This document shows, piece by piece, positions 20,889-38,325 of a stretch of DNA of 38,325 bases. Source of the DNA: Helicobacteraceae bacterium (GTDB taxonomy: Bacteria; Campylobacterota; Campylobacteria; Campylobacterales; Sulfurimonadaceae); NCBI GenBank assembly GCA_015488775.1, contig WFNF01000018.1:1-38325 (forward strand), written 5' to 3'. How positions within the stretch are numbered: the stretch's first letter is position 1; the number at the start of each line of letters is the position of its first letter. The position numbers and the translations under genes are program-made. The notes under the pieces are model-generated. The model saw nothing but the letters and a program-made list of their open reading frames with translations. It searched no databases and was not told the origin of the DNA.

Positions 20889-22967
20889 ATGGGATTTAGA
20901 ATAAACACTAATATTGCATCAATGAATGCACAAACAAATGCGGCAATTGTCAATAGGAATCTTGATAGTTCACTAGAGAAGTTGAGTTCAGGTTTAAGAA
21001 TTAATAAGGCAGCTGATGATGCATCTGGTATGACTATTGCAGATTCACTTCGTTCACAAGCTAACTCACTAGGTCAAGCTATTGCAAATGCAAATGATGG
21101 AATCTCTGTTATACAAATTGCTGATAAAGCTATGGATGAGCAATTAAAAATACTAGACACTATTAAAACTAAAGCAATTCAAGCTGCTTCAGATACTCAA
21201 AACAGTGCATCTCGTGAAGCTATACAAAAGGATGTTGATAGACTTTTAGAACAACTAGATAACATTGCAAAAACTACATCTTATAATGGACAGACTCTAC
21301 TTTCTGGTAACTTTACAAATAAAGAGTTCCAAATTGGTGCTTACTCTAACCAAACAATTAAAGCTTCTATAGATAATACTCAATCTTTAGCTATAGGTAA
21401 TATTACTGGTAAAACAGATATTGCTGCTATTGGAAACACTATTAGTGATGCAGTTACAACAACAATAACAGAGGGTTCTAAAACTATCTCAATCTCAACT
21501 GCGTTTGGTGGAGCTAACTTTGATGGTCAAGGCTTAGCTGTTGGAGATACAATCCGTATAGATGGTGTTGGTGATTATAAAATTGCTGAGCTTGATGGCA
21601 GCATGTCAACTGGTACTATGTCAGGTGCAACTATAACACTAGATAGAGGTATTGAAAAAACATTATCTGTTGGTACAAATGTAAAACTATCTTTAGTTCA
21701 AACCGTACCTGAAAATTTAAATGCTTTAGATACTTCAAGTGGTACAGCAGATGCTGCCTCTACTGTTGCAATAAGTACAACAGATTTATCTGGTTTAGCA
21801 GTTGGTGACACAATAAATATAACAAATAGTGCTGGTAATACTAAGGTATATACTATTGCAATACTTACAGGAGCAACATCTGTTGGTGCTACTTCAGGCT
21901 CTATAACTATATCTACAACAGATACAAGTTCTGGTGGTGCTTTAGCAAATGCAACAAATATACAGATGTCAGATAGAGCATCTCTAGGTACCGATTTTAC
22001 AAGTGATGATTTTATACAATACACGGTAGGTGGAGTAGATCTTCAAGGAGTTCAATTAACTAAGTCAGTTGATGTAGCGATGTCAGATGGAAGTACAAAA
22101 ACGTTTGCATCTGGTGTTGATCAAACTGGTTTAGGTAAAGTAGCAGATTTAATCAACGCTACAACAGATAAAACTGGTATAAAAGCTGTTGCAGTCGTTG
22201 AAGAAAAATCTCAAATACGTGTTCAAGGTGGAATCATCTCGAATGATATAATAATCAATGGTGAGCGAATTTTAAATGCAGGTACAACTATTGAAAATGC
22301 TGATAGCAATAACACCCTACTAAATGCGATTAACCAAAAAACTAATGTAACTGGAGTTAGTGCAACTTTAGCAGCAGATGGAACTATGAGACTAACAAGT
22401 GATGGTAGAGCTATGGTAACAGATGGCTTAAGTGTAGTTGCAGGGATAAATGATGGTGTACATGCAGGAGAACTAGAACTTAAAAGTTTAACAGGTGGAA
22501 CTATAGATACATCATCAAAACAGTTTAAAGACTCTGGATTAACACAAAGTTCAAATTCAGATATATCCTCTTTAACAGAGTTAGAGCAAAGCAATGTTCT
22601 GAGTGATGTTAAATACGGTCAAGTTGATGATAATGAAGATGGTGTTATAGATGAAAAAGATAAAGTTGGACTATTAAGAACAAATGCGGGGGCTATGCGT
22701 ACTATGGATATAGTTGAAGCAGCAATCTCAAAACTTGATGGAACTCGTTCAGATTTAGGTTCTGTTCAAAACCAACTTACAGTTACAGTAAATAATATCT
22801 CTGTTACACAAGTAAATGTAAAATCAGCAGAATCTCAAATTAGAGATGTTGACTTTGCAGCAGAGAGTGCCAACTTCTCTAAAAATAACATCCTAGCACA
22901 ATCAGGCTCTTACGCAATGAGTCAAGCAAATGCAATACAACAAAATGTACTAAAACTACTTCAATAG
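20889..22967 (+). CDS. flaB: Flagellin FlaB (minor, sigma-54 class)
   Basis: 692 aa with the same layout as FlaA. The D0/D1 ends are conserved, with MGFRINTNIASMNAQTNA at the start and SQANAIQQNVLKLLQ at the end. The same two central beta modules are present, and an acidic EF-hand-like loop at 580-591 reads DDNEDGVIDEKD. It is nearly identical to FlaA over the first 270 or so residues and diverges mostly in the middle and before the C-terminal helices. The pair is a long direct repeat prone to recombination. A Maf gene begins 24 nt after its stop with no terminator seen, so both may be on one transcript. Confidence 0.97.
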   Translation: MGFRINTNIASMNAQTNAAIVNRNLDSSLEKLSSGLRINKAADDASGMTIADSLRSQANSLGQAIANANDGISVIQIADKAMDEQLKILDTIKTKAIQAASDTQNSASREAIQKDVDRLLEQLDNIAKTTSYNGQTLLSGNFTNKEFQIGAYSNQTIKASIDNTQSLAIGNITGKTDIAAIGNTISDAVTTTITEGSKTISISTAFGGANFDGQGLAVGDTIRIDGVGDYKIAELDGSMSTGTMSGATITLDRGIEKTLSVGTNVKLSLVQTVPENLNALDTSSGTADAASTVAISTTDLSGLAVGDTINITNSAGNTKVYTIAILTGATSVGATSGSITISTTDTSSGGALANATNIQMSDRASLGTDFTSDDFIQYTVGGVDLQGVQLTKSVDVAMSDGSTKTFASGVDQTGLGKVADLINATTDKTGIKAVAVVEEKSQIRVQGGIISNDIIINGERILNAGTTIENADSNNTLLNAINQKTNVTGVSATLAADGTMRLTSDGRAMVTDGLSVVAGINDGVHAGELELKSLTGGTIDTSSKQFKDSGLTQSSNSDISSLTELEQSNVLSDVKYGQVDDNEDGVIDEKDKVGLLRTNAGAMRTMDIVEAAISKLDGTRSDLGSVQNQLTVTVNNISVTQVNVKSAESQIRDVDFAAESANFSKNNILAQSGSYAMSQANAIQQNVLKLLQ

Positions 22968-22990: not shown

Positions 22991-24871
22991 ATGGATTTTT
23001 ATAAAAAAAACCTTGATGCAATAAAACAAAATAATGTTTTTCTTTATGAAAAACTAAACTCAATATATAATAATGATAGATATGAGGTTTTTTTACCTCA
23101 AGGGTATAAATATCCAAACATATTAGATAAAAAAAACAATGCTATGTTTTACCAAGATTCCCAAGATGAAATTGAGATAAAAAAAGAGCATCTAAAAGAA
23201 CTTCAAGAATACCCATTTTTATATTTTTTTGGTATTGCTGATGGTAGCAATATCAAAGAGTTATTAAAAAATAAAAATCTACAACAACTTTTAGTTATAG
23301 AGCCAGAGCTTGAACTACTTTATGTTGCTTTAAACGTAAACGATTTTAGCAAAGATTTAGAGAAAAACAGATTACTTTTTTTAGAAAAAGATGATATAAA
23401 TAGATCAACAATAGTTAATCTTTTTCATAACTTAAATGCAAAATACTATATAAAAGTATTTAGATTACATCTGATAAATCAATATTATGAGCAATTTTAT
23501 ATTGATGAGTATAAAAAATTATATGGAATTTTTTTAGATGCTTTAGACTACTTTGCACAAGCAAATGGTAACGATATAAACGACACATTTACAGGAGTCA
23601 TACAACATATCCAAAACTTAGACATAATGTTAGAAAACTTACCTTATTCCCAGCTAAAAAAGGCAAAAAACTCTAATTTAGCTGTTATAGTATCAACAGG
23701 TCCAAGCTTAACTAAACAACTTCCACTACTAAAAGAGTATCAAGATAAAATTACAATTATAAGTGTAGATGCCTCTCTACCTATACTTTTAAAAAATGGT
23801 ATCATCCCAGATATTGTTACATCTATGGAGAGGGATGAACCAACATCTGTATTTTTTAAAGATGTAGATTATTCAACACTTAAAGAGACCATTTTTATAT
23901 GTGCGTCACTTCAACATAAAAGTGTTTTTGATGCTATTAAAAGCGATAAATTAATGGTTGTAATGCGTCCATTTGCTTACAATATATATTTTGATTTTGA
24001 TGATTATGGATATGTTTGTATGGGGATGAGTTCAGCTAATATGGCTCATGAAGTAGCAACAGCTATGAGATTTGATCAGATAACATTTATAGGTCAAAAT
24101 CTTGCCTTTGGTGATGATTTAAAAACACATGCTGATGATCATATTATAGAAAGTGATCCTGATCTTGATGCTCAAATTCAAAGTGGTAAGCTTTTTGATA
24201 TAACGGCTTATGGTGCAGAGGGGAAAGTAAAAACAAATATTTTTTGGAATATCTTTAAAAATTTTATTGAACAACATATAGACTCAACCAAAAACATAGT
24301 TACAAGCTATAACTCTACACAAGGTGGTGCTAGGATTGAGGGTAGTATAGAGATCGATTTTAAAGATGTTTTGTCTAAATATGCAAATACTACAAAAAAA
24401 CCTTTACAAGTAAGCAAACCATCAAGTGAAAACATTGAAGTATTAAAAAGTTCAAAAGAGCAAAAGTTACAATTTATCCTTGATGAATCAAAAGAGTTGC
24501 AAGAGCAGATCAATAGATCTTTTTTAATTATTGCAGATGCCTCAAAAGATCTTGAAAATAAAAGTATAGATGAGTGTTTAGAGATATTTGATATCTCAAT
24601 GACTATAAAACTTTTAGATGAGATATCTAAAATCCGTAAAGAGGTTGAAAACTCTAAAATATATTACAAATTTTTAGAGAGCATCATACAGCCACTAATG
24701 TACTCTATGGAGTTGGAGATAGGTGAGATAAAAGTAAAATATGTTAATAATCCTAAAGACAATACTATAAAAGCTCTGCAATGGATTTTAGCACATAGAT
24801 ATTGGCTTTTTAGTCTAAGTGGCGTAATTGAAAATGTTATCCATCTAACTCAAGAGAATATTAAGAGCTAG
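22991..24871 (+). CDS. maf1: Motility-associated factor (Maf) glycosyltransferase, copy 1
   Basis: 626 aa of the Maf/DUF115 (MAF_flag10) family, which transfers nonulosonic acids to flagellin in the cytoplasm before export. The central nucleotide-sugar-binding-like domain (about 228-400) contains VSTGPSLTKQLPLL, SMERDEPTSVFFKD, LQHKSVFDAIKSD, SSANMAHEVA and GQNLAFGDD. A variable helical C-terminal region follows. It lies directly behind flaB on the same strand, so it is likely made together with its substrate. It ends tail to tail with the second maf gene, overlapping by 11 bp. Confidence 0.9.
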   Translation: MDFYKKNLDAIKQNNVFLYEKLNSIYNNDRYEVFLPQGYKYPNILDKKNNAMFYQDSQDEIEIKKEHLKELQEYPFLYFFGIADGSNIKELLKNKNLQQLLVIEPELELLYVALNVNDFSKDLEKNRLLFLEKDDINRSTIVNLFHNLNAKYYIKVFRLHLINQYYEQFYIDEYKKLYGIFLDALDYFAQANGNDINDTFTGVIQHIQNLDIMLENLPYSQLKKAKNSNLAVIVSTGPSLTKQLPLLKEYQDKITIISVDASLPILLKNGIIPDIVTSMERDEPTSVFFKDVDYSTLKETIFICASLQHKSVFDAIKSDKLMVVMRPFAYNIYFDFDDYGYVCMGMSSANMAHEVATAMRFDQITFIGQNLAFGDDLKTHADDHIIESDPDLDAQIQSGKLFDITAYGAEGKVKTNIFWNIFKNFIEQHIDSTKNIVTSYNSTQGGARIEGSIEIDFKDVLSKYANTTKKPLQVSKPSSENIEVLKSSKEQKLQFILDESKELQEQINRSFLIIADASKDLENKSIDECLEIFDISMTIKLLDEISKIRKEVENSKIYYKFLESIIQPLMYSMELEIGEIKVKYVNNPKDNTIKALQWILAHRYWLFSLSGVIENVIHLTQENIKS

Positions 24872-26690
24872 ATGAATTTATCTTTTTCATTATTAAAGTA
24901 GAATTAGTATCCATAAGTTTTAAATTTTCATAGCTGAATTTAATAATCGTTTCTGCTCTTTCATAATCATCTTTATAGCACTGAGCATATTTGTAAGCAA
25001 GTTCTCTCTCTTGGGCATCTAAAGATGAAGCTATTATTGGGGAAATAAAATCATGAAAAGTTTTAATATTTTTAATTTCTTTTTTAACACTTAAAATCTC
25101 ATTGTACAATAGTAAAGATTTAACACTGCCATATTTATCAAATTTTTTAATTTTATTAATTATATTTTTAAGTATATGATTATATTTTTTATAATCTTTT
25201 TCAAGTTTTGTATTTTTTTTATTAAATGATTTTAATAATTTGGCACTCTCCTCTTTTGATATCTGATCAACTTTTATAATATCTTTATCATCTAGTTTTT
25301 TTAACACATTAGTTATATTTAAAAAACTATCCTCTATACAGTTATATATTTTAGCTCCACCCTCAGTTGCATTTATACATAACATGTTGTCACTATATTT
25401 TAAAATAAATCTCTCTAAAGCATTTTTAAATAAAACCCAATATACATGAGACTTTACCACTCCTTCTGAGCCATAAGCTTCAAGTTCATACAATCTACCA
25501 TCTTTTTTCTCTTGCTCTATAAGATCATTTGTTTCAAATATATGTCCTTTTGTATGTGTACTTCCATCTTTAGCAAAAGCTAAATCCTGACCAATTAAAA
25601 CTGTTTTACTTACACCTATGTGATATGCAAAATCTAAAGCCATATTTGCAGCCGAGTGACCATTTGCCAAATAACCAAAATCATCATATTCAAAATAGCG
25701 GTACTCTTTTAAGTTTCTAAATACAATAACTTGTTGCTCTTTTTTTATAGCATCAAAAACACTTTTATGTTGTAAAGAAACTAAAATAAAATCACTTTTC
25801 TCTTGAAAAGAATATGGTATATCTTTAAAAAAATGAGATGTTGGTTCATCTCTTTCCATAGAAACAACAAAATCTGGAATAATTCCATGCCTATATAAGA
25901 TAGGGTATGAAGCATCTACACTTATAATTATCGCCTTAGATTCAATACTTTTTAAAAGCTTAAGCTGTTTATGTAAACTTGGACCGGTAGAAACAATTAT
26001 AGCTGTTTTATTTTTATAAAGATTTTGAAAGTTTGAAAGTTTTTTTGATTTAAACATCAGCTCAATATTGTTAAAACTCTGTTCTATCCCCTTTAAACTA
26101 TCGTTTATCATATTTCCTGATCTAATTTTTAAATATTCAATTATCTGTGTAAAAAGTACTTTTAGATTTTTATAATTACTAAATCTTTTATAATATTCAC
26201 TTGTAAATATCTCAAAATAATCTATACAAAAAATACTATCTTGATAATCAAATATCTTTATACCAAATTCAAAATCTATATCTGTACTTTTTAAAATCTG
26301 AATTTTTTTTGATTTTAAAAAATCACTATAATCATGAAAATGAAAAGCTATATAGATTAACTCTATATTGTCTTCAAATAAGACAACTCTTTGAGCTTCA
26401 TGGTTTAAAAGTAAGGATAAAAGAAATAAACCATTACCTATGCCATAAAGATATAAATACCTATAATTTTCATAAACTTTAAACTCTTGCAGTTGTTGGG
26501 CAAGTTCTAGTTTTGGATTATCATAGATATATGTTTGATTTTTATGATCAAAGATATTTAGATCTGTAATAGTTTCTATTGAGTTTGATGGCTCAAATAC
26601 CTCAAGTTGTTCTATCTTTAAAAGCTCTTTTGCAAGTGAACTGTTTACACTTTCTAGAGATTTTATATTTTTTTTAAATACCGTCTGCAT
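24861..26690 (-). CDS. maf2: Motility-associated factor (Maf) glycosyltransferase, copy 2
   Basis: 609 aa, clearly paralogous to copy 1: IVSTGPSLHKQLKLL, SMERDEPTSHFFKD, LQHKSVFDAIKKE, HSAANMALDFA and GQDLAFAKDGST. The N-terminal and C-terminal parts differ more. It starts at an ATG sharing its A with the stop of amidotransferase 2 (TAATG), so it is the last gene of the sugar operon. This gives one Maf tied to flagellin and one tied to sugar synthesis. The two may use different sugars or different acceptors, which is an inference. Confidence 0.9.
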   Translation of the reverse strand: MQTVFKKNIKSLESVNSSLAKELLKIEQLEVFEPSNSIETITDLNIFDHKNQTYIYDNPKLELAQQLQEFKVYENYRYLYLYGIGNGLFLLSLLLNHEAQRVVLFEDNIELIYIAFHFHDYSDFLKSKKIQILKSTDIDFEFGIKIFDYQDSIFCIDYFEIFTSEYYKRFSNYKNLKVLFTQIIEYLKIRSGNMINDSLKGIEQSFNNIELMFKSKKLSNFQNLYKNKTAIIVSTGPSLHKQLKLLKSIESKAIIISVDASYPILYRHGIIPDFVVSMERDEPTSHFFKDIPYSFQEKSDFILVSLQHKSVFDAIKKEQQVIVFRNLKEYRYFEYDDFGYLANGHSAANMALDFAYHIGVSKTVLIGQDLAFAKDGSTHTKGHIFETNDLIEQEKKDGRLYELEAYGSEGVVKSHVYWVLFKNALERFILKYSDNMLCINATEGGAKIYNCIEDSFLNITNVLKKLDDKDIIKVDQISKEESAKLLKSFNKKNTKLEKDYKKYNHILKNIINKIKKFDKYGSVKSLLLYNEILSVKKEIKNIKTFHDFISPIIASSLDAQERELAYKYAQCYKDDYERAETIIKFSYENLKLMDTNSTLIMKKINSSSS

Positions 26691-27862
26691 TAATCTTCAA
26701 ATCCCCTCTGTAATAGATCCATATCTTCATCTATATCTATTTTTTTATCTTCAATAAAATTTAGTTTATCTAAGATATCTTTTATATCATCATATAAAAT
26801 AGTTTGTTCCAATTTTTTATATCCTATCTTCTCTTTTAATATATCTACAGAGATATCAAAATAAGAGGCTAATTGAGGCAGATATTTTAATGGTTGCTCT
26901 TGATAATACTTAGTAAGCTTTAAAGCATCTTCTTTACTTAATCTACCCCATCTAATCTCTCTACAAGCATGATCAGTGGCTAGAGTATAAGAGCATTTTC
27001 TAAATTTTATATAATCATGTGTATCAGCATAATGCAGAGTATCTATAGTGTTATATGTATCAAAAGTTCTATTTTGCTCTTGAGTTTTATAGCCATACAG
27101 TTTTATCATCAACTCATGCTGTTTTTTACTATCCCAAGCTATATAATTACTTAGATATATCCCCCTTACACCAACTTTCTCTATCTCTTTAGAATCTGGG
27201 TAAAAGTATTGTAATAGATCGTTTTTAGTAAGATTATCAACACCAACTAAATCCTCAGCCTCATAGCCCATTAAATCGTGCTCTTTTCTATACTTTCTAC
27301 TCATCTCAACCTCATCTTCATGTGAATACATTCCAACTTGTTCAACACCTTGATGAGCTCCCCAAATGATTAGTGGTATTTTGTATCTTACTGCTATTTG
27401 AACTGGAAAAACACTATTTCCAGCTACTATATGCCAATGTATAGATTTAAATTTATCTAAGGTTACTTTTGTGATTTTTTTCACTTTTTGTGGTTGAGAC
27501 ACCATATCTAAAGCATCAACATCAAATATAGTTTTTAGATAAGCGTAATTTCTATGACCTATTTTAGAATTAAAATGGGGGTTATATCTTACAAGCAAAG
27601 GGTTTAGACCTAAAATCTTTTTCACTATATGAAGTGTATAGTAGCTATCTTTAGCTCCTGTAACTGGGACTATGCAATCATAAGATTGAGCATCTTGATT
27701 TTTGAAACCATTTACTAAATTTTTTAATTTTTCAAACCTTTTATCCCAATCAAGTGTTATCTTTTCCTCATGAACAAGGCACCCACTACAAATCCCATCA
27801 TCATCTATAATAATCCCTAAAGGGTGGTTTTCATGATATAAACATCTTTTACAATATCTCAT
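26690..27862 (-). CDS. N-acetyl sugar amidotransferase 2 (PseA/WbpG family) with altered PP-loop
   Basis: 390 aa. The N-terminal zinc-binding-like Cys pairs are CKRC (4-7) and CSGC (25-28). The PP-loop that should bind ATP reads TGAKDS (68-73) instead of SGGxDS. These enzymes adenylate an acetamido group and use ammonia from a HisH/HisF pair to make an acetamidino group. The paralogue at 29334 has the standard loop. The changed loop could mean a different substrate or lower ATP use; Lys71, Asp72 and Ser73 remain. It overlaps the HisF-like gene by 4 nt and is coupled to maf2. Confidence 0.85.
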   Translation of the reverse strand: MRYCKRCLYHENHPLGIIIDDDGICSGCLVHEEKITLDWDKRFEKLKNLVNGFKNQDAQSYDCIVPVTGAKDSYYTLHIVKKILGLNPLLVRYNPHFNSKIGHRNYAYLKTIFDVDALDMVSQPQKVKKITKVTLDKFKSIHWHIVAGNSVFPVQIAVRYKIPLIIWGAHQGVEQVGMYSHEDEVEMSRKYRKEHDLMGYEAEDLVGVDNLTKNDLLQYFYPDSKEIEKVGVRGIYLSNYIAWDSKKQHELMIKLYGYKTQEQNRTFDTYNTIDTLHYADTHDYIKFRKCSYTLATDHACREIRWGRLSKEDALKLTKYYQEQPLKYLPQLASYFDISVDILKEKIGYKKLEQTILYDDIKDILDKLNFIEDKKIDIDEDMDLLQRGFED

Positions 27863-28719
27863 ATAGACTCTTTTATATGTTTTTCAAATATCATATCTTT
27901 TAAAACTTCATCATCTTGTTTTTTTATCCTAATATCATTATCAAACTCTATATCTTTATATTGTAATACTCCATCATGCCTTATAGCTCTAAGTTTATCT
28001 TTTTTTAAAAACATTTTACTTATAGCTACACTATGCTCACTATAATGAAAAAAGTTACCAGCTCCTACAGCAGAGATTTTATCTACATTATCTAGTAACT
28101 CTCTCATACATAAAGGGTTTTTAGCCCCACCTAAAGCTATTATAGGAAGATTGGTATATCTAAGTGCCTCTTTGTATAGTTCAATATCATAAGAGTTTTT
28201 ACTTCCATCTCTATCTACACTATTTAACAGAACCTCTGCAATATCTAAACTTGATAATCTTTGCTTTAACTCTATAGTAGTTTGTTTACTTTTATAATCA
28301 TATATCATATATTTTGAGTTCTCTTTTTTAACATCTATAGAAGCTACAATAGCTTGTTTGCCAAAATATTTAATTAAATCTTGAACCAAAACATCATCAT
28401 CTAAAGCGCTATTTAAAATGATTTTATCCGCACCAGATTCAAAAACTTTTTTTGCACTCTCTATAGAGTTTATACCACCACCAACACTGAGTGGAGTAAA
28501 GATTTTACCTGCTACTTTTTTTACAAGATCTAAAGATATTAAACTAGATTTTTTACTTGCATCTATATCTATCAAAGCTATCTCATCTATGCCCCACTCG
28601 TTTAAAAACTCTGCTGCTATCTCAGGTTTGCCAATTGGTAGATATCTATTAAACCCTATACTTTGAACTGCAAGATTATTTTTTACTATTATAGTAGCTA
28701 TCAACCTTTTTTTAAGCAT
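27859..28719 (-). CDS. HisF-like ammonia-channel subunit for amidotransferase
   Basis: 286 aa of the HisF (beta/alpha)8-barrel family, with a C-terminal extension of about 30 residues. The first catalytic Asp of true HisF (Asp11) is Ile here (RLIATIIVKNN), whereas the second (in VASIDVKK) is kept. It therefore probably no longer makes imidazole glycerol phosphate. Its likely role is to dock with the HisH-like subunit and pass ammonia on, as proposed for HisF2 with WbpG in Pseudomonas aeruginosa. It lies between hisH-like and amidotransferase 2 genes with overlapping ends. Confidence 0.87.
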   Translation of the reverse strand: MLKKRLIATIIVKNNLAVQSIGFNRYLPIGKPEIAAEFLNEWGIDEIALIDIDASKKSSLISLDLVKKVAGKIFTPLSVGGGINSIESAKKVFESGADKIILNSALDDDVLVQDLIKYFGKQAIVASIDVKKENSKYMIYDYKSKQTTIELKQRLSSLDIAEVLLNSVDRDGSKNSYDIELYKEALRYTNLPIIALGGAKNPLCMRELLDNVDKISAVGAGNFFHYSEHSVAISKMFLKKDKLRAIRHDGVLQYKDIEFDNDIRIKKQDDEVLKDMIFEKHIKESI

Positions 28720-29344
28720 TATAACTCTCCATATAGTTTAAAAAACCTCTTAATAGTTTTAAGCCAGAAGTTTGCGATTTTTCTGGATGAAACTGTGTCG
28801 CAAAAATATTATCTTTTTGAACACTAGCTACAATCTCTTTTTCATATAGAGTTATTGAACCTACTATATCTTCATTACAAACCATCTCAAAAGAGTGATC
28901 AAAATAAAAATGCGTATCTGAATCTATTTTTGTAAAAAGTGGCTCTTTTTTTAGTACCTCTATAGAGTTAAACCCAACATGGGGTAAAGGGTTTGATTTA
29001 ACATCCAAAAGCTTTACACTAGCATCAAAAAAACCAAGTCCCTCACTTACTCCACTCTCCTCACCATTTTGTGCCATTATTTGCATCCCTAAACATATAC
29101 CTAATATTGGTTTTTTATCTACTAGGGCACTATCTCTAAGAATCTCTTTTAATCCAAAAAACTTTATCTTCTGCATAGCTTCATAAAAAGACCCAACTCC
29201 TGGTAAAATCAAAGCATCAGCATCTTTAATCTCATCATAATCTCTACTAACACTACTTCTATAACCAAGAAACTCTAAAGAGTTTGAGATTGAGTAGGTG
29301 TTACCCATATCGTAATCTACAATAACAATCTTTTTACCAAACAT
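28712..29344 (-). CDS. HisH-like glutaminase subunit for amidotransferase
   Basis: 210 aa from the ATG of MFGKKIVIVDYDMGN, which has a GAGG ribosome site; an in-frame GTG two codons earlier is less likely. It is a class I glutamine amidotransferase with the nucleophile Cys in GICLGMQIM and the His-Glu pair in TQFHPEKSQ, so all three catalytic residues are present. It should release ammonia from glutamine for the sugar amidotransferases. It overlaps the end of amidotransferase 1 by 11 nt and the HisF-like gene by 8 nt. No histidine biosynthesis genes are near. Confidence 0.9.
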   Translation of the reverse strand: MFGKKIVIVDYDMGNTYSISNSLEFLGYRSSVSRDYDEIKDADALILPGVGSFYEAMQKIKFFGLKEILRDSALVDKKPILGICLGMQIMAQNGEESGVSEGLGFFDASVKLLDVKSNPLPHVGFNSIEVLKKEPLFTKIDSDTHFYFDHSFEMVCNEDIVGSITLYEKEIVASVQKDNIFATQFHPEKSQTSGLKLLRGFLNYMESYNA

Positions 29345-30479
29345 CAACACCCTCTTTTAAAATCCATTTTCCATCACTATTTTTATAAAACAGATCTTTA
29401 TTTACAAAAGGATCAAACATCTCCCAAAACTGATCTTCACTAATCTGTAAATATCTACACAGTTTATCCATATAACTTTGATGATAAGAACCATCATACT
29501 TTTTAACTAGCTCTTTAGCCTCATCCCTACTCATCAAATCTGCTCTAAGTGCAACCCCAACCTCTTGCGTACATTTACCAAATCCAAACTTTAGATATTT
29601 CATCATCTGATTTATAATTACAAAATCATCATCCAATGCTACATGTGGTTGAATCCCTCCAATATTTTCTGGCTTAGCCTCTTCACCATCTCTTGTTACA
29701 AGACCATTTTCTATAGCAACTCTAGCATTTGTATGATCATTAAAATCTTTCATAAAGTAGCCTAAATAAACAAGTTTTAAATCGGCTCTTTGCATCTCAT
29801 CATCTTGAGGGTATCTATACCAATATAGTTTGTTATCTTTTATACTTGGTGGAGCAAAAGCCCTTGGATCTCCACCTTGCAAAGTATTTGTATGTTTCAT
29901 ATTATTTGCAATATAATCCTCACTGCCACCAACTGCTGTACCAAAAGCTAAAGCTGGATTTTCCCCTAAAAGTATTAGTGGGATATTGTATCTTATGGCT
30001 GTTATTGGCAAGGAGGAGTAAAGAGCCAATTCACTAGAGTTAAAAAGATTTCCATAGGTTTTTAAACAATACAACATCATCTCTTTTGAGCTTAGTGGTG
30101 CTGGTTGAACTATTATAGTATCAAAACCCAGCTCTATTAGATTTTCTAAGTTTTTCACACCTCTATGTGTAACTTGTTCTGGAGGATATACACAAGATAC
30201 CAAAAGTGGATTTAAACCTTTTTCTCTAGCGTAAAGAGCCTGAACTGTACTATCTTTACCCCCACTAACACCAATTATACAATCATACCCACTTACATCA
30301 CTTCTAGCCTTCCCCCAAGCTATAATATCTTGTAAAATCTCTTCTCTTTTATCCCAATCTATAATCTCTAAACTTTTTTTAGATACAGAGCGACAAGGCA
30401 GACAAATACCATTTTCATCAAACTTTGATGTTGGTCTAAGATCGGTCTCTACACAAGTTTTACATCTATGAAATTTCAT
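29334..30479 (-). CDS. pseA: N-acetyl sugar amidotransferase 1 (PseA/WbpG family)
   Basis: 381 aa. The N-terminal Cys pairs are CKTC (6-9) and CLPC (26-29). An intact PP-loop SGGKDS lies at 72-77. Later family motifs include LLVSCVYPPEQVTHRGVKN and GENPALAFG. PseA acts in the acetamidino branch of pseudaminic acid in C. jejuni, and WbpG does the same for LPS sugars in P. aeruginosa. Location with pse genes and HisH/HisF makes amidination of a nonulosonate the likely role, but the exact sugar is not shown. A GGGAAA ribosome site precedes the ATG. It follows the AAA ATPase gene by 17 nt. Confidence 0.85.
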   Translation of the reverse strand: MKFHRCKTCVETDLRPTSKFDENGICLPCRSVSKKSLEIIDWDKREEILQDIIAWGKARSDVSGYDCIIGVSGGKDSTVQALYAREKGLNPLLVSCVYPPEQVTHRGVKNLENLIELGFDTIIVQPAPLSSKEMMLYCLKTYGNLFNSSELALYSSLPITAIRYNIPLILLGENPALAFGTAVGGSEDYIANNMKHTNTLQGGDPRAFAPPSIKDNKLYWYRYPQDDEMQRADLKLVYLGYFMKDFNDHTNARVAIENGLVTRDGEEAKPENIGGIQPHVALDDDFVIINQMMKYLKFGFGKCTQEVGVALRADLMSRDEAKELVKKYDGSYHQSYMDKLCRYLQISEDQFWEMFDPFVNKDLFYKNSDGKWILKEGVDVW

Positions 30480-31687: not shown

Positions 31688-31697
31688 AGAATCCCTT

Positions 31698-31717
31698 TTG
31701 TATAATATATTATACAA
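31698..31717. promoter_or_regulatory. 20-bp perfect palindrome (likely operator) before the AAA ATPase
   Basis: TTGTATAATA followed by its exact reverse complement TATTATACAA, with no spacer. On the minus strand it covers the -10 box and predicted start of transcription of the ATPase gene. A symmetric dimer site over the -10 is a classic autoregulatory layout, though no regulator gene is adjacent. The palindrome could also contribute to ending the upstream transcript. Confidence 0.6.
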
Positions 31718-31736
31718 TAATATCAGTTTTTTACAA
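31709..31736 (-). promoter_or_regulatory. Sigma-70-type promoter of the AAA ATPase
   Basis: On the minus strand: TTGTAA (31731-31736), a 16-bp spacer, and TATAAT (31709-31714). The -35 lies inside the last codons of the GNAT gene. The expected start near 31702 gives a leader of about 15 nt with the AGGG ribosome site. The -10 lies within the palindrome. Confidence 0.55.
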
Positions 31737-32265
31737 TAGCATAAATAACTATATCAACAAAAACTCCATCTTTTTTCATAGCCTCTTTTTTTACACCCTC
31801 TTGTTTAAAACCAAGCTTTAGTGCTAGTTTTTGCATCCCATTGTTAAACTCACTTGTTCCACAATATATACGATGAAGTTTTAAAACATTAAAACCAAAC
31901 TCTAACAAAAGTTTTGATGCTCTAAAACCTATATTTTTTCCATACATATCATCTCTACCTATAAGTATTGCAAACTCTGCATTTTCATCTTTAGAGTTTA
32001 CATTTTGTAAAGAGATATTTCCTATATGCTCACCATCTAACTCAATTGCAAAAGCATAGATACTGTTAGAGTCATTTACACCTTTTACATATTGTAGTGC
32101 CATCTCTTTAGTGTAGGGTATTGCTCCATGTGAGTTGTACTTAGTTACCTCTTTGTTATTTAACCAACTTGGGTAAGCCCCATAAGCGTCATCTTCAACT
32201 AAGGCTCTAAGTTTTAAATCTTTATCTTGAAGAGTTGGTAAAGGGGTTTGTTTCACTTTTATCAT
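31723..32265 (-). CDS. GNAT acetyltransferase (RimJ/RimL-like)
   Basis: 180 aa. The layout is that of RimJ/RimL-type GNAT proteins: KLRALVEDDAYGAYPSWL, then NISLQNVNSKDENAEFAILI, then the acetyl-CoA pyrophosphate-binding stretch GRDDMYGKNIGFRASKL and the C-terminal LGFKQEGVKKEAM. Its start overlaps the DegT gene by 4 nt. After an oxidoreductase and an aminotransferase, the expected job is to acetylate the new amino group on a sugar nucleotide. It is distinct from the smaller PseH enzyme. The substrate is inferred from gene order only. Confidence 0.8.
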   Translation of the reverse strand: MIKVKQTPLPTLQDKDLKLRALVEDDAYGAYPSWLNNKEVTKYNSHGAIPYTKEMALQYVKGVNDSNSIYAFAIELDGEHIGNISLQNVNSKDENAEFAILIGRDDMYGKNIGFRASKLLLEFGFNVLKLHRIYCGTSEFNNGMQKLALKLGFKQEGVKKEAMKKDGVFVDIVIYAIVKN

Positions 32266-33545
32266 CTTAACTCATCTAAATTTTTACTAACTTTTATAAA
32301 AGCTTCTATAACATCATCCAGATTATCTTGACTCATCCCAGGTCTCATAAGTTCATGTGTTATAAGCTCTTTAAAGTGCATTTTTTCAGTAACTGGACAT
32401 ATCCCAAGTGAGTAATCTTGATCAGATAAATCATTAAAACTAAAAGCAATCTTCTCTTGGTAAAGGGGTTGAAGATACAGGGGTTTAACATACCCATAAG
32501 AGATAAGCACATCACTCTCATCTCTTAGTAAGGTTCTTGGTAGTTCAGCTTTTAAAGCTTTTACAAAAGACTCTCTACTAACACCTGCTTTACTCTCATC
32601 AAATCTAATTGGATGAACATAAAAAGCGTGTTCACCCATTCGTTTTGGCATACTTAAAAATGGTATCTCTTTTAGATGAGCTTCAAGGTAATCAACATTT
32701 TTTATACGCTCTTTTATAAGTTGTGGAAGTTTTTTTAACTGCTCTTTAGCTATAGCACACTCTATCTCAGTCATCCTATAATTAAAGCCTACCATATTTT
32801 TAAGCTCATCTACACTTTCATAGCCTTTGGCATTTATAACAGCTTCTGCATGGTTTCTAATGAGTCTAAGCTTATGTGCCAAACTATCATCATCGGTTAC
32901 TACAACACCACCCTCACCACTATGTATATGTTTATGGTAGTTTAAAGAGAAAACACCTATATCACCAAAAGTACCAAGGTATCTGTTCTTATACTTAACC
33001 CCTGGAGCTTGAGCACAATCCTCTATAATCTTTAAATTATATTTTTTAGCTAAAGTGTCTAAAGATTCAACATCATAAACACCACCAAAGATATCAACAA
33101 CAATTATAGCTTTTGTTTTAGGTGTGATTTTAGACTCAATACTTTTAACATCAAGTGTAAAACTATCTTCATCTATATCTGCAAAAACAGGAGTAGCACC
33201 ATAAACAAGTGCAGCAGTTGCACTAGCGCTCATAGTGTAGCTACTCACAATAACCTCATCACCAACACCAAGCCCAAGAGCACCAACACTAGCATAAAGT
33301 CCAGAAGTTGCAGAGTTTACGCTAATAGCGTGTTTTACACCAAAAAAACTCTCCCACTCCCTCTCAAAAGATTGAACCTCAACACCACCATAAAAATCAT
33401 CATGCCAAGTTCCAAGATAAGTTGAAAGTTTTCCAGAGCGAAGAACCCTTAAAACAGCCTCCTCCTCAGCTTTATCTATAGTATTGTAAGCTGGAAACGG
33501 TTTATCTCTTACCTTTTTACCACCATTTATAGCTAAAACTGCCAT
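32262..33545 (-). CDS. DegT/DnrJ/EryC1/StrS-family sugar aminotransferase
   Basis: 427 aa, a PLP enzyme with the Schiff-base Lys at 205 in SLNYHKHIHSGEGG, plus SVNSATSGLYAS and EDCAQAPG. The family transaminates keto sugars or cyclitols bound to a nucleotide. PseC of the pseudaminic pathway belongs to this family, but neighbours suggest a separate role, with a Gfo/Idh oxidoreductase before it and a GNAT after it. This matches the order dehydrogenate, aminate, acetylate seen in WbpB/WbpE-type routes. The start shares a base with the oxidoreductase stop. I cannot rule out that it is PseC itself. Confidence 0.88.
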   Translation of the reverse strand: MAVLAINGGKKVRDKPFPAYNTIDKAEEEAVLRVLRSGKLSTYLGTWHDDFYGGVEVQSFEREWESFFGVKHAISVNSATSGLYASVGALGLGVGDEVIVSSYTMSASATAALVYGATPVFADIDEDSFTLDVKSIESKITPKTKAIIVVDIFGGVYDVESLDTLAKKYNLKIIEDCAQAPGVKYKNRYLGTFGDIGVFSLNYHKHIHSGEGGVVVTDDDSLAHKLRLIRNHAEAVINAKGYESVDELKNMVGFNYRMTEIECAIAKEQLKKLPQLIKERIKNVDYLEAHLKEIPFLSMPKRMGEHAFYVHPIRFDESKAGVSRESFVKALKAELPRTLLRDESDVLISYGYVKPLYLQPLYQEKIAFSFNDLSDQDYSLGICPVTEKMHFKELITHELMRPGMSQDNLDDVIEAFIKVSKNLDELR

Positions 33546-34501
33546 TAAAACTCCAATCTTTTTTCATCAAAAAGTCTATCTTTTATATCTATAAGTTTTC
33601 TACTTAAACTTAGATGTCTTTTTAAAGTTGTATCTATATCGTCACCATTTAGTGCATAATCAAGACTATAATATAGATTTTTACCCATAAAATCAGCTAA
33701 GCTTTTTTCAAAAACAAGATTTTTATAGCCCTTGTAGTGTTTAGAGTCTTGTGTAGTCTCTATCTCTATATTGTGCCCACTATCTTTTATCTTTACCCTA
33801 TGGTTTTTATATATAACACTCATCTCAAACAAAGCAAACTCATCACCACTAAAGTTTTGAATAACCCCTGAAGTACTTGTTGTTTTTATAAAAAAAGTTC
33901 CAAAAAGATCATCTTCTACTTTTTTAGCCTCTATAACTTTTATCTCTAAAATCTCACCTAACAAAAACTCTACCATATCAAGTGCATGTGAGCCATTATG
34001 AAAAAGCCCCTTAGTAAATGTAAAGTTAAAATTTACAGCATCACCAAAACTGCTAACTTCCTTTTTTAACTCCAAAAAACTTGGATTAAAACTTCTTATA
34101 AAGTTTATAATCACTCTTTTGTTGCTAGAGATTAGCAAGGGTTCAATCTCATCTATTTGATCAAGTGTTTCAACAAAAGGTTTTTCACAAATTATGATTT
34201 TTAAATCTCTATTTTGCAAAGCTATTTTAAGGTTTTCAAAATGGAACTTAGTGGGTGAGCATATACTTAAGATATCAAAATAGTTGTTTTTTAACATCAA
34301 CTCTAGTGAGTTGTATCTTTTAATCCAACCATAACTATTTTCAAGATGCTCCAATTTATCATTATCAACATCACAAGCACAACGCAAGGCTGTATCTTTA
34401 TGCTCTTTATAAGCGTGAGCATGGGTTAAGATATTTTCACTATTGGGTGTATCAAGATAACATGCTATGTTTCCAACTCCAACTATTGCTGCATTATACA
34501 T
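33545..34501 (-). CDS. Gfo/Idh/MocA-family oxidoreductase
   Basis: 318 aa. The Rossmann motif GVGNIA (8-13) binds NAD(P), and the EKPF motif near residue 115 marks the active-site Lys-Pro of the family. The C-terminal half (FNFTFTKGLFHNGSHALDMVEFLLGE) is the usual dimerising substrate domain with an active-site His. In this context it probably oxidises a nucleotide sugar, making the keto group that the following aminotransferase uses. It overlaps the putative glycosyltransferase by 8 nt. Confidence 0.85.
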   Translation of the reverse strand: MYNAAIVGVGNIACYLDTPNSENILTHAHAYKEHKDTALRCACDVDNDKLEHLENSYGWIKRYNSLELMLKNNYFDILSICSPTKFHFENLKIALQNRDLKIIICEKPFVETLDQIDEIEPLLISSNKRVIINFIRSFNPSFLELKKEVSSFGDAVNFNFTFTKGLFHNGSHALDMVEFLLGEILEIKVIEAKKVEDDLFGTFFIKTTSTSGVIQNFSGDEFALFEMSVIYKNHRVKIKDSGHNIEIETTQDSKHYKGYKNLVFEKSLADFMGKNLYYSLDYALNGDDIDTTLKRHLSLSRKLIDIKDRLFDEKRLEF

Positions 34502-35465
34502 ACTTAAAACCTTTTATTTTTTGAACTAGAGTCTTTATATCCCCACCTATGAACATATTGTCAATATTTAACTTTTCAAAATGTATCTTAGATAGCTTTA
34601 ACTCTCTTAGTTTATGTGTTTCTGGTAGAGGGAGTAAAAACTCCCTATTTTTAGATGGAAGATAAGATATAGTAGCCACACCCATAAGTGCAGATATAAC
34701 TAAAACAAAACTATTAAACCCTATAACCATGTTTGATGTTAATATATCTTTATTTAGGTCAACTTCACTTGATTTATGAACACTTATATCTATATCTTTA
34801 TATTTTTTGATCAAATCATCATAAGGGGATCTTTTTTGAGCTGGATGGAGTCTAACTTCAATTCTCATACCACCAAAGCGATTAGTGTTTTTTAATATAT
34901 CCTCTAAAGCGCTTAGCTCATCAAAGCCCCAATAGTTTTCATCATTATAACTATTTAAAGCAACCTCTTTTACAGGTTCACTTAAAAAAAGCAGTTTATT
35001 TTGTGGTGTATGTTCTATCTTAGTATCTAAAAGGTTTTTTATATAATAGTTTGTAAGTTGAATAGGATTTTTTAAGTTATATCTATATGCTAACTCTAAA
35101 GCGTAACTATCACTTAAGATGGTAAAATCTGGCTCTAACAACACCCCATCATATATAAACCTAGATCTATACTCACTATAGCTATCTACAAAAGCAAAAG
35201 TTGGAATATTTAGTTTTTTAGCTTTTTTAACATACTTATACTCTACTTTATCTCTCCAAGCAGTACCATAAAAAAAGGCATCAAAACCATTTATATTTAA
35301 CTCATCTAAAGATTTAAACTCTAAGTTTTCTCTTATTAAGATACTCTCAAAAGGGGATGATTTTTTTGCAAAAATAGAGCATTTTATCTCATCTTTGTAC
35401 TCTTTAACCAAAGCAGATATAAGTTCACTAGCACCAGCATCATGAGATAAAACAGCTATCTTCAT
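34494..35465 (-). CDS. Putative glycosyltransferase-like protein (unassigned)
   Basis: 323 aa. It begins MKIAVLSHDAGASELISALV with an N-terminal Rossmann-like domain, a middle FLSEPVKE segment, then RLHPAQKRSPYDDL and SNMVIGFNSFVLVISALMGV. The His-Pro in RLHP and the later Ser-containing glycine-rich helix start recall the GT-B fold of sialyltransferase/polysialyltransferase and capsule proteins. I cannot name the family. It overlaps pseI by 4 nt and the oxidoreductase by 8 nt, so it is co-expressed with nonulosonate genes. A transferase or a nucleotide-sugar epimerase would fit. Confidence 0.55.
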   Translation of the reverse strand: MKIAVLSHDAGASELISALVKEYKDEIKCSIFAKKSSPFESILIRENLEFKSLDELNINGFDAFFYGTAWRDKVEYKYVKKAKKLNIPTFAFVDSYSEYRSRFIYDGVLLEPDFTILSDSYALELAYRYNLKNPIQLTNYYIKNLLDTKIEHTPQNKLLFLSEPVKEVALNSYNDENYWGFDELSALEDILKNTNRFGGMRIEVRLHPAQKRSPYDDLIKKYKDIDISVHKSSEVDLNKDILTSNMVIGFNSFVLVISALMGVATISYLPSKNREFLLPLPETHKLRELKLSKIHFEKLNIDNMFIGGDIKTLVQKIKGFKYV

Positions 35466-36469
35466 ACTATAAGTTCATCTTTAAGTGGAGTACCTTTTTT
35501 TATATCTTGCTTAAAAGTTTTTCCTAAAACTACATTTAGATACTTAGGGTGCATCCCATCTCCAGGTCTTATACTTTTTATATTTTTTTCACTTATAATA
35601 TCACCTTTTTTTACATCTTCAACCACAAAAAGGCTTCTACCAAAAATTTTATTTGACTTAGCATCATCACCTAAGGTGTATTTTACTTCACCTAAAGCTT
35701 TTTGAGCCTCCCTTACACCATTTACTAAGGATTTTAACTCGCTTGGCTCTAATGAAAACTCACTATCTACACCACCCATAGATCTATCTAAGATAAAATG
35801 TTTCTCTATAACCTTAGCACCCAAACCTACACTTAAAATAGGGAGAGTTATCCCCATAGTATGATCAGATAAACCAACCTCTACACCAAAGCGTTTTTTC
35901 ATATCTAAAAGTGTTTTCAGATTTGCATCTTCCACTTTTGCAGGGTATGCAGATGTGCACTTTAAAAGTGTTATCTCGTTATGGTGTTTTTTTATAGTTT
36001 TTATAGCTAGCTCTATATCCTCAACACTAGCTATACCACTTGAGATGATTATAGGTTTCATCTTAGATGCCATATAATCTATCAAGGCTATATCTTGAAT
36101 CTCAAAAGATGCAACTTTATAGATGGGGTTATCTAAGCCTTCTAAAAAGTCTATAGCCGTTTTATCAAAGGGTGAGCTAAAACATAGTATCCCCTCCTCT
36201 TTAGCTACTCTAAAAAGCTCTTTATGCCAACTCCATGGGGTATGAGCCTTTTCATACAAAGAGTATAAAATCTCCCCATCCCACAAAGATCCATTTTTTA
36301 TCTGAAAATACTCATTATCACAATCTAGAGTCATAGTATCAGCTCTATAGGTTTGCAGTTTTATAGCATCTACCCCACATTTTGCAGCAGACTTAATGGT
36401 ATCTATAGCTGTTTGTAAATCTCCATTGTGGTTTGCACTAAGTTCAGCTACTATAAAAACACTATCCAT
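35462..36469 (-). CDS. pseI: Pseudaminic acid synthase
   Basis: 335 aa from the ATG with a GGG ribosome site; an earlier GTG is in frame. It is a NeuB-family enzyme that condenses the trideoxy sugar with phosphoenolpyruvate. The N-terminal barrel contains AELSANHNGDLQTA and KLQTYRADTMTL, with LWDGEILYSLYEKAHTPW fitting PseI rather than sialic acid or legionaminic acid synthases. Metal-binding His residues are in SDHTMG and EKHFILDRSMGG. The C-terminal SAF antifreeze-like domain is GRSLFVVEDVKKGD...IRPGDGM. It overlaps pseH by 8 nt. Confidence 0.93.
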   Translation of the reverse strand: MDSVFIVAELSANHNGDLQTAIDTIKSAAKCGVDAIKLQTYRADTMTLDCDNEYFQIKNGSLWDGEILYSLYEKAHTPWSWHKELFRVAKEEGILCFSSPFDKTAIDFLEGLDNPIYKVASFEIQDIALIDYMASKMKPIIISSGIASVEDIELAIKTIKKHHNEITLLKCTSAYPAKVEDANLKTLLDMKKRFGVEVGLSDHTMGITLPILSVGLGAKVIEKHFILDRSMGGVDSEFSLEPSELKSLVNGVREAQKALGEVKYTLGDDAKSNKIFGRSLFVVEDVKKGDIISEKNIKSIRPGDGMHPKYLNVVLGKTFKQDIKKGTPLKDELIV

Positions 36470-36896
36470 CTTCACCCTTTTTTATATAATCAACATCACC
36501 AACATACTCAAAGCCCAATTTTTTAAACAAAGCTATAGATTTTACATTTTCTTTTTTTATCTGTGCTTTAAAATTATAAAAATTTCTCTCTTTTATAATC
36601 TGCTCAAGAGCTAAAAAAGCATACCCTTTGGAGCGAAACTCTTTATGTAAAGATATACTAATTAGATAGGTATCTTTTTCTAAAATATCTAAGCGTATTT
36701 GACCTATAAATTTTTTATCTTTTAAAATTTTATAAAGTATCCTATGTTTATTGTTTAAACTATTTTTAAACCAGAGTATATGTTCATCAAAAGATATTTT
36801 TTCACTATTAAAAGAGTTTTCCCTAACACTCTTATCGTTTGCCAAATTAAAAAAAAGTTCTAAATCATCTAAGTTAGCTTCAACTACACTAAGCAT
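36462..36896 (-). CDS. pseH: PseH-type N-acetyltransferase
   Basis: 144 aa of the GNAT family. The acetyl-CoA site is EFRSKGYAFLALEQII and the C-terminus reads SIALFKKLGFEYVGDVDYIK. PseH acetylates the 4-amino group of the altrose-configured UDP-sugar in pseudaminic acid synthesis. Its place between pseG and pseI is the main support for the name. It overlaps pseG by 13 nt and pseI by 8 nt. Confidence 0.85.
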   Translation of the reverse strand: MLSVVEANLDDLELFFNLANDKSVRENSFNSEKISFDEHILWFKNSLNNKHRILYKILKDKKFIGQIRLDILEKDTYLISISLHKEFRSKGYAFLALEQIIKERNFYNFKAQIKKENVKSIALFKKLGFEYVGDVDYIKKGEDG

Positions 36897-37735
36897 TTAA
36901 GCCTCTTTATATCTCTCATCTTTATACACTTATATCGGTTTTGTTTAAGATACTTGTAGATCTCAGCTTGATTGTTAACAACCTGCACAGCAACTATCTC
37001 TAAACCCATAAAGATAGCCTCACTTGCCATAACGCTAGGTGTCACAATAGCTTTTTTACTTTGTGCCATAACTAAAGCTACATCAGCATCTACAAAAAGT
37101 TTTACCCATCTGTTTTTATTTATATATCGTTTTAGTTGTTTTAGATTTTGATTTGAGCTTGTTGTTGCGAGATTTATTTTTATATTTAGTGGTTTTAAAA
37201 TTTTTAAAATTTTAAGAGTTAGATTTTTACTATCACTTCCACCCAAGCTTAAAAAAACACCCTCTTTTTTTAAGTTTAACTTTTTTGCCTTATAAAACTC
37301 ATCTCTTATAAGTGGTTCTATAAGATTTACCTTTGTAAAACTCTCTAAGATATATCTGTTTTTTTTAGAGCCAAGATTATGGTTGATTATCTCATCACAG
37401 TAGTGTCTCTCATAGGTATCATCAAACACTTTTAGCACTAAGTCAACATATGTGTTTTTTATCTTTTTCTGATCAGTAAAAGAGATACCATAGTGATCAA
37501 CAATCAACTCATCAAAACCTTTAAGATGCTCTAAAAGTGTAGATGTTTTATCATCTTTTAACTCTATAACCTTATATGGTATCTCATCAACTATATCACC
37601 CTCAAGTCTTACACAAGCAAATGAAACATCACAACCACTAAGATACCTTTTAGCATAAACCAAGTCCCGTTTTATATGCCCTAAGCCTATTTTAGAACTA
37701 GAATCGGCTCTTATAAGTATTTTTTTTAAACTCAT
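36884..37735 (-). CDS. pseG: UDP-2,4-diacetamido-2,4,6-trideoxy-beta-L-altropyranose hydrolase
   Basis: 283 aa. The N-terminus ILIRADSSSKIGLGHIKRDL holds the catalytic-type His of PseG in GLGH. The GT-B-type domain has VFLSLGGSDSKNLTLKIL and a final TPSVMASEAIFMGL motif that binds UDP. The enzyme removes UDP to release the free sugar for PseI. The usual length is about 275-340, so it is complete. It overlaps pseF by 4 nt (ATGA). Confidence 0.9.
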   Translation of the reverse strand: MSLKKILIRADSSSKIGLGHIKRDLVYAKRYLSGCDVSFACVRLEGDIVDEIPYKVIELKDDKTSTLLEHLKGFDELIVDHYGISFTDQKKIKNTYVDLVLKVFDDTYERHYCDEIINHNLGSKKNRYILESFTKVNLIEPLIRDEFYKAKKLNLKKEGVFLSLGGSDSKNLTLKILKILKPLNIKINLATTSSNQNLKQLKRYINKNRWVKLFVDADVALVMAQSKKAIVTPSVMASEAIFMGLEIVAVQVVNNQAEIYKYLKQNRYKCIKMRDIKRLKCLV

Positions 37736-38325
37736 ATTGTTTTATATACACTAGCATACATCAACTTAGCTCTTTCAAAATCCTCTAAGGTGTCTATATC
37801 TTGGACTAGGTGTCTTGGTAAGATTATAGGGATGGAATCTTTTCCAAAAAGTATCTCATTAGTTTTTTTATTGACCTTTTTAAAGTAAAACTGTCCAGCG
37901 TCTTGGTAGGCTTCATCTAAGTCCTGACTTCTAGCATTAAAAAACTCTGGTGTAAACATCTCACACCTTCCATCTACAAGTCTAAAAGTTCTTTGTATAG
38001 GAAAAGGCATACTTGTAGCTGAAAAAGCATATACCGCGTCTGAGTTTTTTAAAGTCTCATACCCTTTTTTAAGATACACAACATCCAAAAGTGGAGCAGT
38101 TGCATAAAGCATACAAGCTATCTCAACATCTTCAAACTTAGATATAGCATCCTCAAAAACCTCTATGCTTGAGCTATAATCATCACTAAGATTCTCATCT
38201 CTCATAAAGGGTACTTCTGCTCCATACTCTTTAGCTATATTTGCTATCTCTTCATCATCTGTACTAACTATCACCTTATCAAAAATCTCACTTTTTAAGG
38301 CATTTTCTATGGAGTAGGCAATAAG
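37732..38325 (-). CDS. pseF: CMP-pseudaminic acid synthetase, partial (5' end outside window)
   Basis: The frame is open to the window edge, so the start (with the nucleotide-binding PARGGSK-type motif) lies beyond it. The visible 197 residues begin LIAYSIENALKSEIF and continue VIVSTDDEEIANIAKEYGAE, then ATAPLLDVVYLKKGYE, SATSMPFPIQRTFRL, and YQDAGQFYFKK. These are features of NeuA/PseF cytidylyltransferases. PseF activates pseudaminic acid with CTP to CMP-Pse, the donor for Maf. It is the first of the run of overlapping pse genes in the window. Confidence 0.92.
   Translation of the reverse strand, partial: LIAYSIENALKSEIFDKVIVSTDDEEIANIAKEYGAEVPFMRDENLSDDYSSSIEVFEDAISKFEDVEIACMLYATAPLLDVVYLKKGYETLKNSDAVYAFSATSMPFPIQRTFRLVDGRCEMFTPEFFNARSQDLDEAYQDAGQFYFKKVNKKTNEILFGKDSIPIILPRHLVQDIDTLEDFERAKLMYASVYKTI

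Follow-up and report, generated by a model that had tools for sequence, protein, structure and literature searches.

A conserved X-Gfo-DegT gene module beside the pseudaminic acid genes of a Helicobacteraceae bacterium and its possible role in tailoring pseudaminic acid

Pseudaminic acids (Pse) occur on flagella and capsules, where their variants determine serotype, phage binding and immune recognition. The sugar carries nitrogen at C5 and C7 and a methyl group at C9, and its only free hydroxyls are those at C4 and C8. The present analysis concerns contig WFNF01000018.1 of a Helicobacteraceae bacterium (assembly GCA_015488775.1), taken over its entire length of 38,325 nucleotides (contig C18 of the genome, G000:C18) and called the window below. 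In this window the pse genes adjoin genes for a protein with a predicted glycosyltransferase-B (GT-B) fold, designated X, a Gfo/Idh/MocA dehydrogenase (Gfo), a DegT-family aminotransferase and a second GNAT acyltransferase (GNAT2). The reading favoured here, at roughly even odds (about 0.5), is that X-Gfo-DegT-GNAT constitutes an oxidise-aminate-acylate tailoring module for a finished pseudaminic-type nonulosonate, most likely leading to 8-amino-pseudaminic acid.

Several described systems resemble parts of this locus. KdnB and KdnA of Shewanella convert 3-deoxy-D-manno-oct-2-ulosonic acid (Kdo) into 8-amino-Kdo, and thus, as in the chemistry proposed for the module, an ulosonic acid is oxidised and then transaminated by a DegT enzyme at C8. 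KdnB is, however, a metal alcohol dehydrogenase, whereas the module has a Gfo/Idh enzyme, and the window DegT scores 145 bits against KdnA (structure 5k8b). The WbpB, WbpE and WbpD proteins of Pseudomonas aeruginosa likewise comprise a Gfo dehydrogenase, a DegT aminotransferase and an acetyltransferase, but the module, which is tied to PseI, has neither WbpA nor an acetyltransferase of the hexapeptide type. PseA and PtmG are the acetamidino synthases of Campylobacter; the window also has WbuX-type amidotransferases adjoining Pse genes, although here HisH-HisF is shared between two WbuX copies and is replaced by an Amidase-family gene at other loci. In Acinetobacter baumannii prophages, Pse is epimerised to 8-epi-Pse by EpaA, a cytidylyltransferase joined to an aldo-keto reductase, together with EpaB (PMC12053666). 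Like the proposed module, these add-on genes act on finished Pse, there at C8, and a cytidylyltransferase and oxidoreductases are among their products. The likeness drawn is one of function; two redox enzymes invert C8 there, whereas the module pairs a dehydrogenase with an aminotransferase, an acyltransferase and a GT-B protein. Finally, the O-antigen of Flexibacter (Tenacibaculum) maritimum contains 5-(3-hydroxybutyramido)-7-acetamido-8-amino-3,5,7,8,9-pentadeoxy-manno-nonulosonic acid (PMC3210612). By analogy, the proposed product would belong to the same class of 8-amino-3,5,7,8,9-pentadeoxynonulosonic acids; a search of the open-access literature found no biosynthetic genes for the T. maritimum sugar.

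X, Gfo and DegT form a conserved module. This is apparent from a survey of 249 genomes of the order and from a cross-phylum survey of the best 80 loci of 491 DegT relatives (DegT identity 55-70%), which were picked by DegT similarity in named genomes and not by gene context. Within the order, X is present in 11 genomes, this one included, and the same genomes hold a strong Gfo match. All ten relatives that have X carry it together with Gfo and DegT beside pse genes, and genes for Maf proteins and flagellin lie in the vicinity; identities to the window proteins amount to 50-68% for DegT and about 24-42% for X and Gfo. The 80 loci span Campylobacterota, Clostridia, Bacteroidota, Desulfobacterota-type bins, Lentisphaerota, Patescibacteria, Cyanobacteria-related lineages and others. 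Of the 43 loci that exceed 18 kb and are regarded as full-length, all contain X, 41 contain Gfo and 41 contain a NeuB/PseI synthase. Where all three module genes are contained, they lie within four consecutive same-strand open reading frames in 64 of 68 loci. A true synthase was located elsewhere in 17 of the 20 genomes without one at the locus. Outside Campylobacterota, the synthase is of the PseI type in 26 of 31 loci (PseI model, E<=1e-103), and in 31 of 51 loci the gene immediately 5' of Gfo encodes a CTP_transf_3 protein closest to KdsB; at least two such cytidylyltransferase genes are present in 12 loci. Because the arrangement recurs in every order relative with X and across phyla, it is far beyond chance.

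The PseB, PseC, PseG, PseI and PseF steps of the standard pathway are encoded in the same genome, partly on another contig. Contig C146 carries pseB (557 bits, cut-off 408) and pseC (490 bits, cut-off 424), as well as the 5' portion of pseF. These PseB and PseC proteins, together with PseI, PseG and PseF of the window, all pass curated NCBIfam cut-offs, whereas PseH is the best model for the GNAT at the pseH position but scores below its cut-off. The terminal 391 bases of C146 overlap the end of the window inside pseF with 98.2% identity (window 37935-38325 versus L013:3852-4242), and therefore the operon extends further upstream. With the two contigs joined on the basis of this overlap, the native order is most likely pseB-C-F-G-H-I-X-Gfo-DegT-GNAT. 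The presence of overlapping pseF copies on two contig ends reflects an assembly break, perhaps caused by strain variation. The preliminary description of this DNA had considered that the DegT protein might be PseC. This identity is rejected, since the true PseB and PseC are located on C146 and the window DegT reaches 230.8 bits against the PseC model (cut-off 423.5), compared with about 490 for the genome's own PseC. An assignment to LegC was rejected as well (174 bits, LegC-family cut-off 420). The putative pyridoxal phosphate (PLP) lysine of the window DegT, K205, lies inside an invariant HKH motif.

An internal control is provided by contig C85 of the same genome, on which a canonical wbpE-wbpD-wbpB-wbpA set is found with rml-type genes (L014 2208-6106). 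This set includes a uridine diphosphate (UDP)-N-acetylglucosamine (GlcNAc) 6-dehydrogenase, a hexapeptide transferase, a Gfo protein with 364 bits to solved WbpB and a DegT protein with 380 bits to solved WbpE. The window DegT scores 117 bits against solved WbpE, and the window Gfo has no WbpB match at E<=0.001. Furthermore, no WbpA-type (UDP-GlcNAc 6-dehydrogenase) gene was found in the window cluster or as a neighbour cluster across the 80 module loci. The parallel with WbpB/WbpE drawn in the preliminary description thus survives in part: the logic of dehydrogenation, amination and acylation is plausible, but the substrate analogy fails, because the genome holds its wbpA-B-D-E genes on C85 and the window Gfo and DegT differ from them. 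It is accordingly barely credible that the trio makes a 2,3-diamino-uronic acid by the WbpB/WbpE/WbpD route, followed by amidination through WbpG-HisH-HisF. The enzyme classes and their order do match this route, and the WbuX and HisH models are passed, but the acyltransferase is a GNAT and not a hexapeptide enzyme.

For protein X, the AlphaFold2 model (predicted local distance difference test, pLDDT, 85.6) exhibits a GT-B fold over the whole length. It aligns with UDP-GlcNAc 2-epimerases at a Z score of about 20 (approximately 295 of 323 residues, root-mean-square deviation 3.7) and with NeuC at Z 18.2, and PseG is also among the Foldseek matches. Fold searches leave the substrate of X undecided. 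An alignment of 46 diverse X members has three invariant residues, P112, H207 and P208, the HP motif being preserved in 46/46. An HP motif is typical of GT-B transferases with cytidine monophosphate (CMP)- or cytidine diphosphate (CDP)-activated donors. The same 46 relatives give weak profile matches to Epimerase_2 (21), polysialyltransferase PF07388 (10) and CDP-glycerol transferase PF04464 (9). Taken at the level of sequence, the HP motif and the weak polysialyltransferase and CDP-glycerol transferase matches suggest that X uses a cytidine-nucleotide substrate; perhaps it is a CMP-nonulosonate transferase. What X does, be it transfer, epimerisation or another reaction, is the least secure element of the proposal.

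The epimerase-like fold of X is also what would be expected if the trio made a separate nucleotide sugar, for example UDP-GlcNAc3N(Ac) in the manner of GnnA and GnnB, and X acted as a GT-B glycosyltransferase or 2-epimerase on a flagellar or surface glycan beside Pse. The Gfo and DegT pair matches the pattern of such a route, in which no UDP-GlcNAc 6-dehydrogenase is required. The predicted Gfo structure (pLDDT 92.7) resembles Gfo/Idh/MocA enzymes with Z scores of 26-28, and the close matches include GnnA at Z 26.5. However, Gfo scores 52 bits against the UDP-GlcNAc 3-dehydrogenase model, for which the cut-off is 450, and this explanation, which we consider unlikely, leaves both the linkage to a PseI-type synthase and CMP-ulosonate cytidylyltransferases and the HP motif of X unexplained. 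The best solved relatives of the two enzymes, scyllo-inositol/inosose transaminases and inositol dehydrogenases, might instead point to a glycan cap made from an amino-inositol such as scyllo-inosamine or from a kanosamine-like amino-hexose. The corresponding identities are low and common to entire superfamilies, and the linkage with nonulosonate and cytidylyltransferase genes is again not accounted for; only a slim chance is given to such a product.

In the favoured tailoring of a finished nonulosonate, PseB-C-H-G-I-F would produce (CMP-)Pse, and the Gfo/Idh/MocA enzyme would oxidise a remaining Pse hydroxyl to a ketone, most likely at C8. DegT would then transaminate this ketone and the GNAT would acylate the new amine, one hydroxyl thereby being exchanged for an acylamino group. 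The expected product would be a 5,7,8-triamino-3,5,7,8,9-pentadeoxynonulosonic acid, activated by PseF or, elsewhere, by the module's own cytidylyltransferase. X may bind the CMP-sugar, perhaps as a transferase, WbuX-HisH-HisF may convert some acetamido groups to acetamidino groups, and flagellin would receive the sugar through the Maf proteins. The predicted flagellin residue, 8-NAc-Pse5Ac7Ac, would have a mass of 357.154 Da, or of 356.170 and 355.186 Da with one and two acetamidino groups, respectively. A 3-amino hexose as feed for PseI was considered and rejected by reasoning: the oxygen at position 3 of the hexose ends up at C6 of the nonulosonate, where it forms part of the ring, and a precursor that lacks it could not close the ring. 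Position C8 is favoured because EpaA/EpaB modify Pse there and the T. maritimum sugar bears an 8-amino group. Tailoring at C4 instead of C8 fits the linkage data equally, these being the sole free hydroxyls of Pse, but it is decidedly unlikely, since both the third amine of the known natural triamino nonulosonate and the known tailoring of Pse by a cytidylyltransferase and an oxidoreductase are at C8.

Several observations weigh against tailoring of a finished nonulosonate. PseF is the sole cytidylyltransferase in the window, and the fold of X is nearer to UDP-sugar 2-epimerases than to sialyltransferases. Structure and sequence comparisons of Gfo and DegT fail to indicate the substrate: dehydrogenases that act on inositol, UDP-GlcNAc(A) and hexoses match the fold of Gfo equally well, and scyllo-inosose-type aminotransferases, the best-scoring solved enzymes for the window DegT, slightly outscore KdnA. 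In 3 of the 20 module genomes without a synthase at the locus, no true NeuB appeared; all are metagenome-assembled genomes, one of them an archaeal bin. Moreover, PseC/LegC-type DegT genes are commonly located near NeuB genes, and part of the linkage is therefore expected; no such expectation applies to X and Gfo. The link between the module and Pse is strong.

In a broader and more tentative form, a widespread and undescribed module consisting of a CMP-ulosonate cytidylyltransferase or PseF, Gfo, X, DegT and an acyltransferase may make 5,7,8-triamino pseudaminic acids in many phyla, with X as the dedicated transferase. No account of the module was found in the open-access literature, and the consulted passages of a 2026 paper on Clostridium flagella (PMC13317340) do not single it out. 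If true, flagella and surface glycans would gain a class of nonulosonic acid otherwise found reported for one O-antigen only, the biosynthesis of the Tenacibaculum sugar would be accounted for, and an overlooked flagellar sugar would be predicted in cultured Sulfurospirillum species and clostridia. It would also offer an annotation rule for the currently unnamed combination of DegT, Gfo/Idh and a hypothetical protein beside pseI.

The acyltransferase position is variable. GNAT2 joins the module in 8 of the 10 order relatives; in the other two (L033:6064-7170 and L034:12903-13997), an Acetyltransf_6-like gene and methyltransferases occupy its place, which suggests a different acyl group. Among cultured Sulfurospirillum strains, the module is carried by S. 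arcachonense DSM 9755 (L117), and S. cavolei UCH003 (L078) has an Acetyltransf_6-like gene but no GNAT2, so that its acyl group may be another one. Phage records yielded no DegT relative, and plasmid records yielded one, from Azospirillum, with 42% identity. On plasmid p6 of Azospirillum argentinense (L185:9001-11343), the module-type DegT and a methyltransferase form a fusion; cytidylyltransferase, Gfo and X are encoded close by on the opposite strand, and a NeuB-family gene is present as well.

The acetamidino genes add a layer that is optional and distinct from the module. Since 34 of the 80 module loci contain WbuX genes, amidination does not belong to the module itself. The amidotransferase set described earlier as a WbpG-HisH-HisF step is thus real, with WbuX and HisH above their cut-offs, but it is not tied to the module; similarly, of the genes expected to co-occur in other genomes, X-Gfo-DegT do recur with pse genes, whereas the amidotransferase genes are missing from many module loci. 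Among the WbuX loci, 16 have HisH plus HisF and 11 have an Amidase-family gene, but never both, which suggests that the Amidase-family protein may supply the ammonia for acetamidino formation in their stead. Its gene (PF01425, GatA-like) directly follows WbuX in L070, L071, L072, L075, L076, L080, L084, L085, L095, L117 and L126; a further example of the family is L028:14811-16157. The order WbuX1-HisH-HisF-WbuX2 (window 26690-30479) also occurs in other phyla, for instance in L090, L114 and L139. Given the change of the PP-loop from SGGKDS in WbuX1 to TGAKDS in WbuX2, the two copies may do different jobs.

The features of the locus are collected in Table 1. The preliminary description had placed pseF-G-H-I and then a GT-like protein, Gfo, DegT and GNAT in overlapping frames, and this gene content is confirmed at the same positions, adjacent genes from the pseF fragment to GNAT2 overlapping by 1-14 bases. 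It was also right that the locus goes beyond the standard Pse pathway, X, Gfo, DegT and GNAT2 being extra to the Pse enzymes, and that the cluster is associated with Maf and flagellin genes.

Table 1. Annotated features of the window between positions 18571 and 38325 (aa, amino acids; bit scores with model cut-offs where given).
Feature	Position	Strand	Basis
pseF fragment, CMP-pseudaminate cytidylyltransferase, truncated by contig end	37732..38325	-	TIGR03584 260 bits, cut-off 205.7
pseG, UDP-sugar hydrolase	36884..37735	-	TIGR03590 166 bits, cut-off 153.6
PseH-like GNAT acetyltransferase at pseH position	36462..36896	-	best NCBIfam model PseH 39.8 bits, below cut-off 93.1; GNAT Pfam matches
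pseI, pseudaminic acid synthase	35462..36475	-	TIGR03586 499 bits, cut-off 340
X, GT-B-fold protein with invariant HP motif (H207-P208), 323 aa	34494..35465	-	predicted structure; no Pfam or NCBIfam family
Gfo/Idh/MocA NAD(P)-dependent sugar dehydrogenase (predicted), 318 aa	33545..34501	-	PF01408; EKP motif at 106-108
DegT/DnrJ/EryC1/StrS PLP aminotransferase, own subfamily, 427 aa	32262..33545	-	PF01041 293 bits
GNAT2, second GNAT acyltransferase, 180 aa	31723..32265	-	PF13302 80 bits
AAA_14/DUF4143-type ATPase gene, between GNAT2 and WbuX1	30497-31717		
WbuX/PseA-type N-acetyl sugar amidotransferase 1 (WbuX1), intact SGGKDS	29334..30479	-	TIGR03573 270.5 bits, cut-off 203.2
HisH-type glutaminase subunit	28712..29350	-	TIGR01855 215.6 bits, cut-off 105.4
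HisF/WbuZ-type subunit	27859..28719	-	best model WbuZ 201 bits, below cut-off 299.7
WbuX-type amidotransferase 2 (WbuX2), PP-loop changed to TGAKDS	26690..27862	-	TIGR03573 299.5 bits; motif from sequence
Maf-family (MptE-like) protein 2	24861..26690	-	PF01973 131 bits
Maf flagellin glycosyltransferase 1	22991..24871	+	PF01973 134 bits, PF20157 31 bits
Flagellin, likely glycosylation target	20889..22967	+	PF00669 and PF00700
Flagellin, likely glycosylation target	18571..20643	+	PF00669 and PF00700

The two Maf-family genes (22991-26690) lie on opposite strands beside the two flagellin genes, with 3' ends overlapping by 11 bases, and both flagellins are long (690 and 692 aa). The AAA_14/DUF4143-type ATPase gene appears to have been inserted into the operon; none of the 10 order relatives showed it at the corresponding site.

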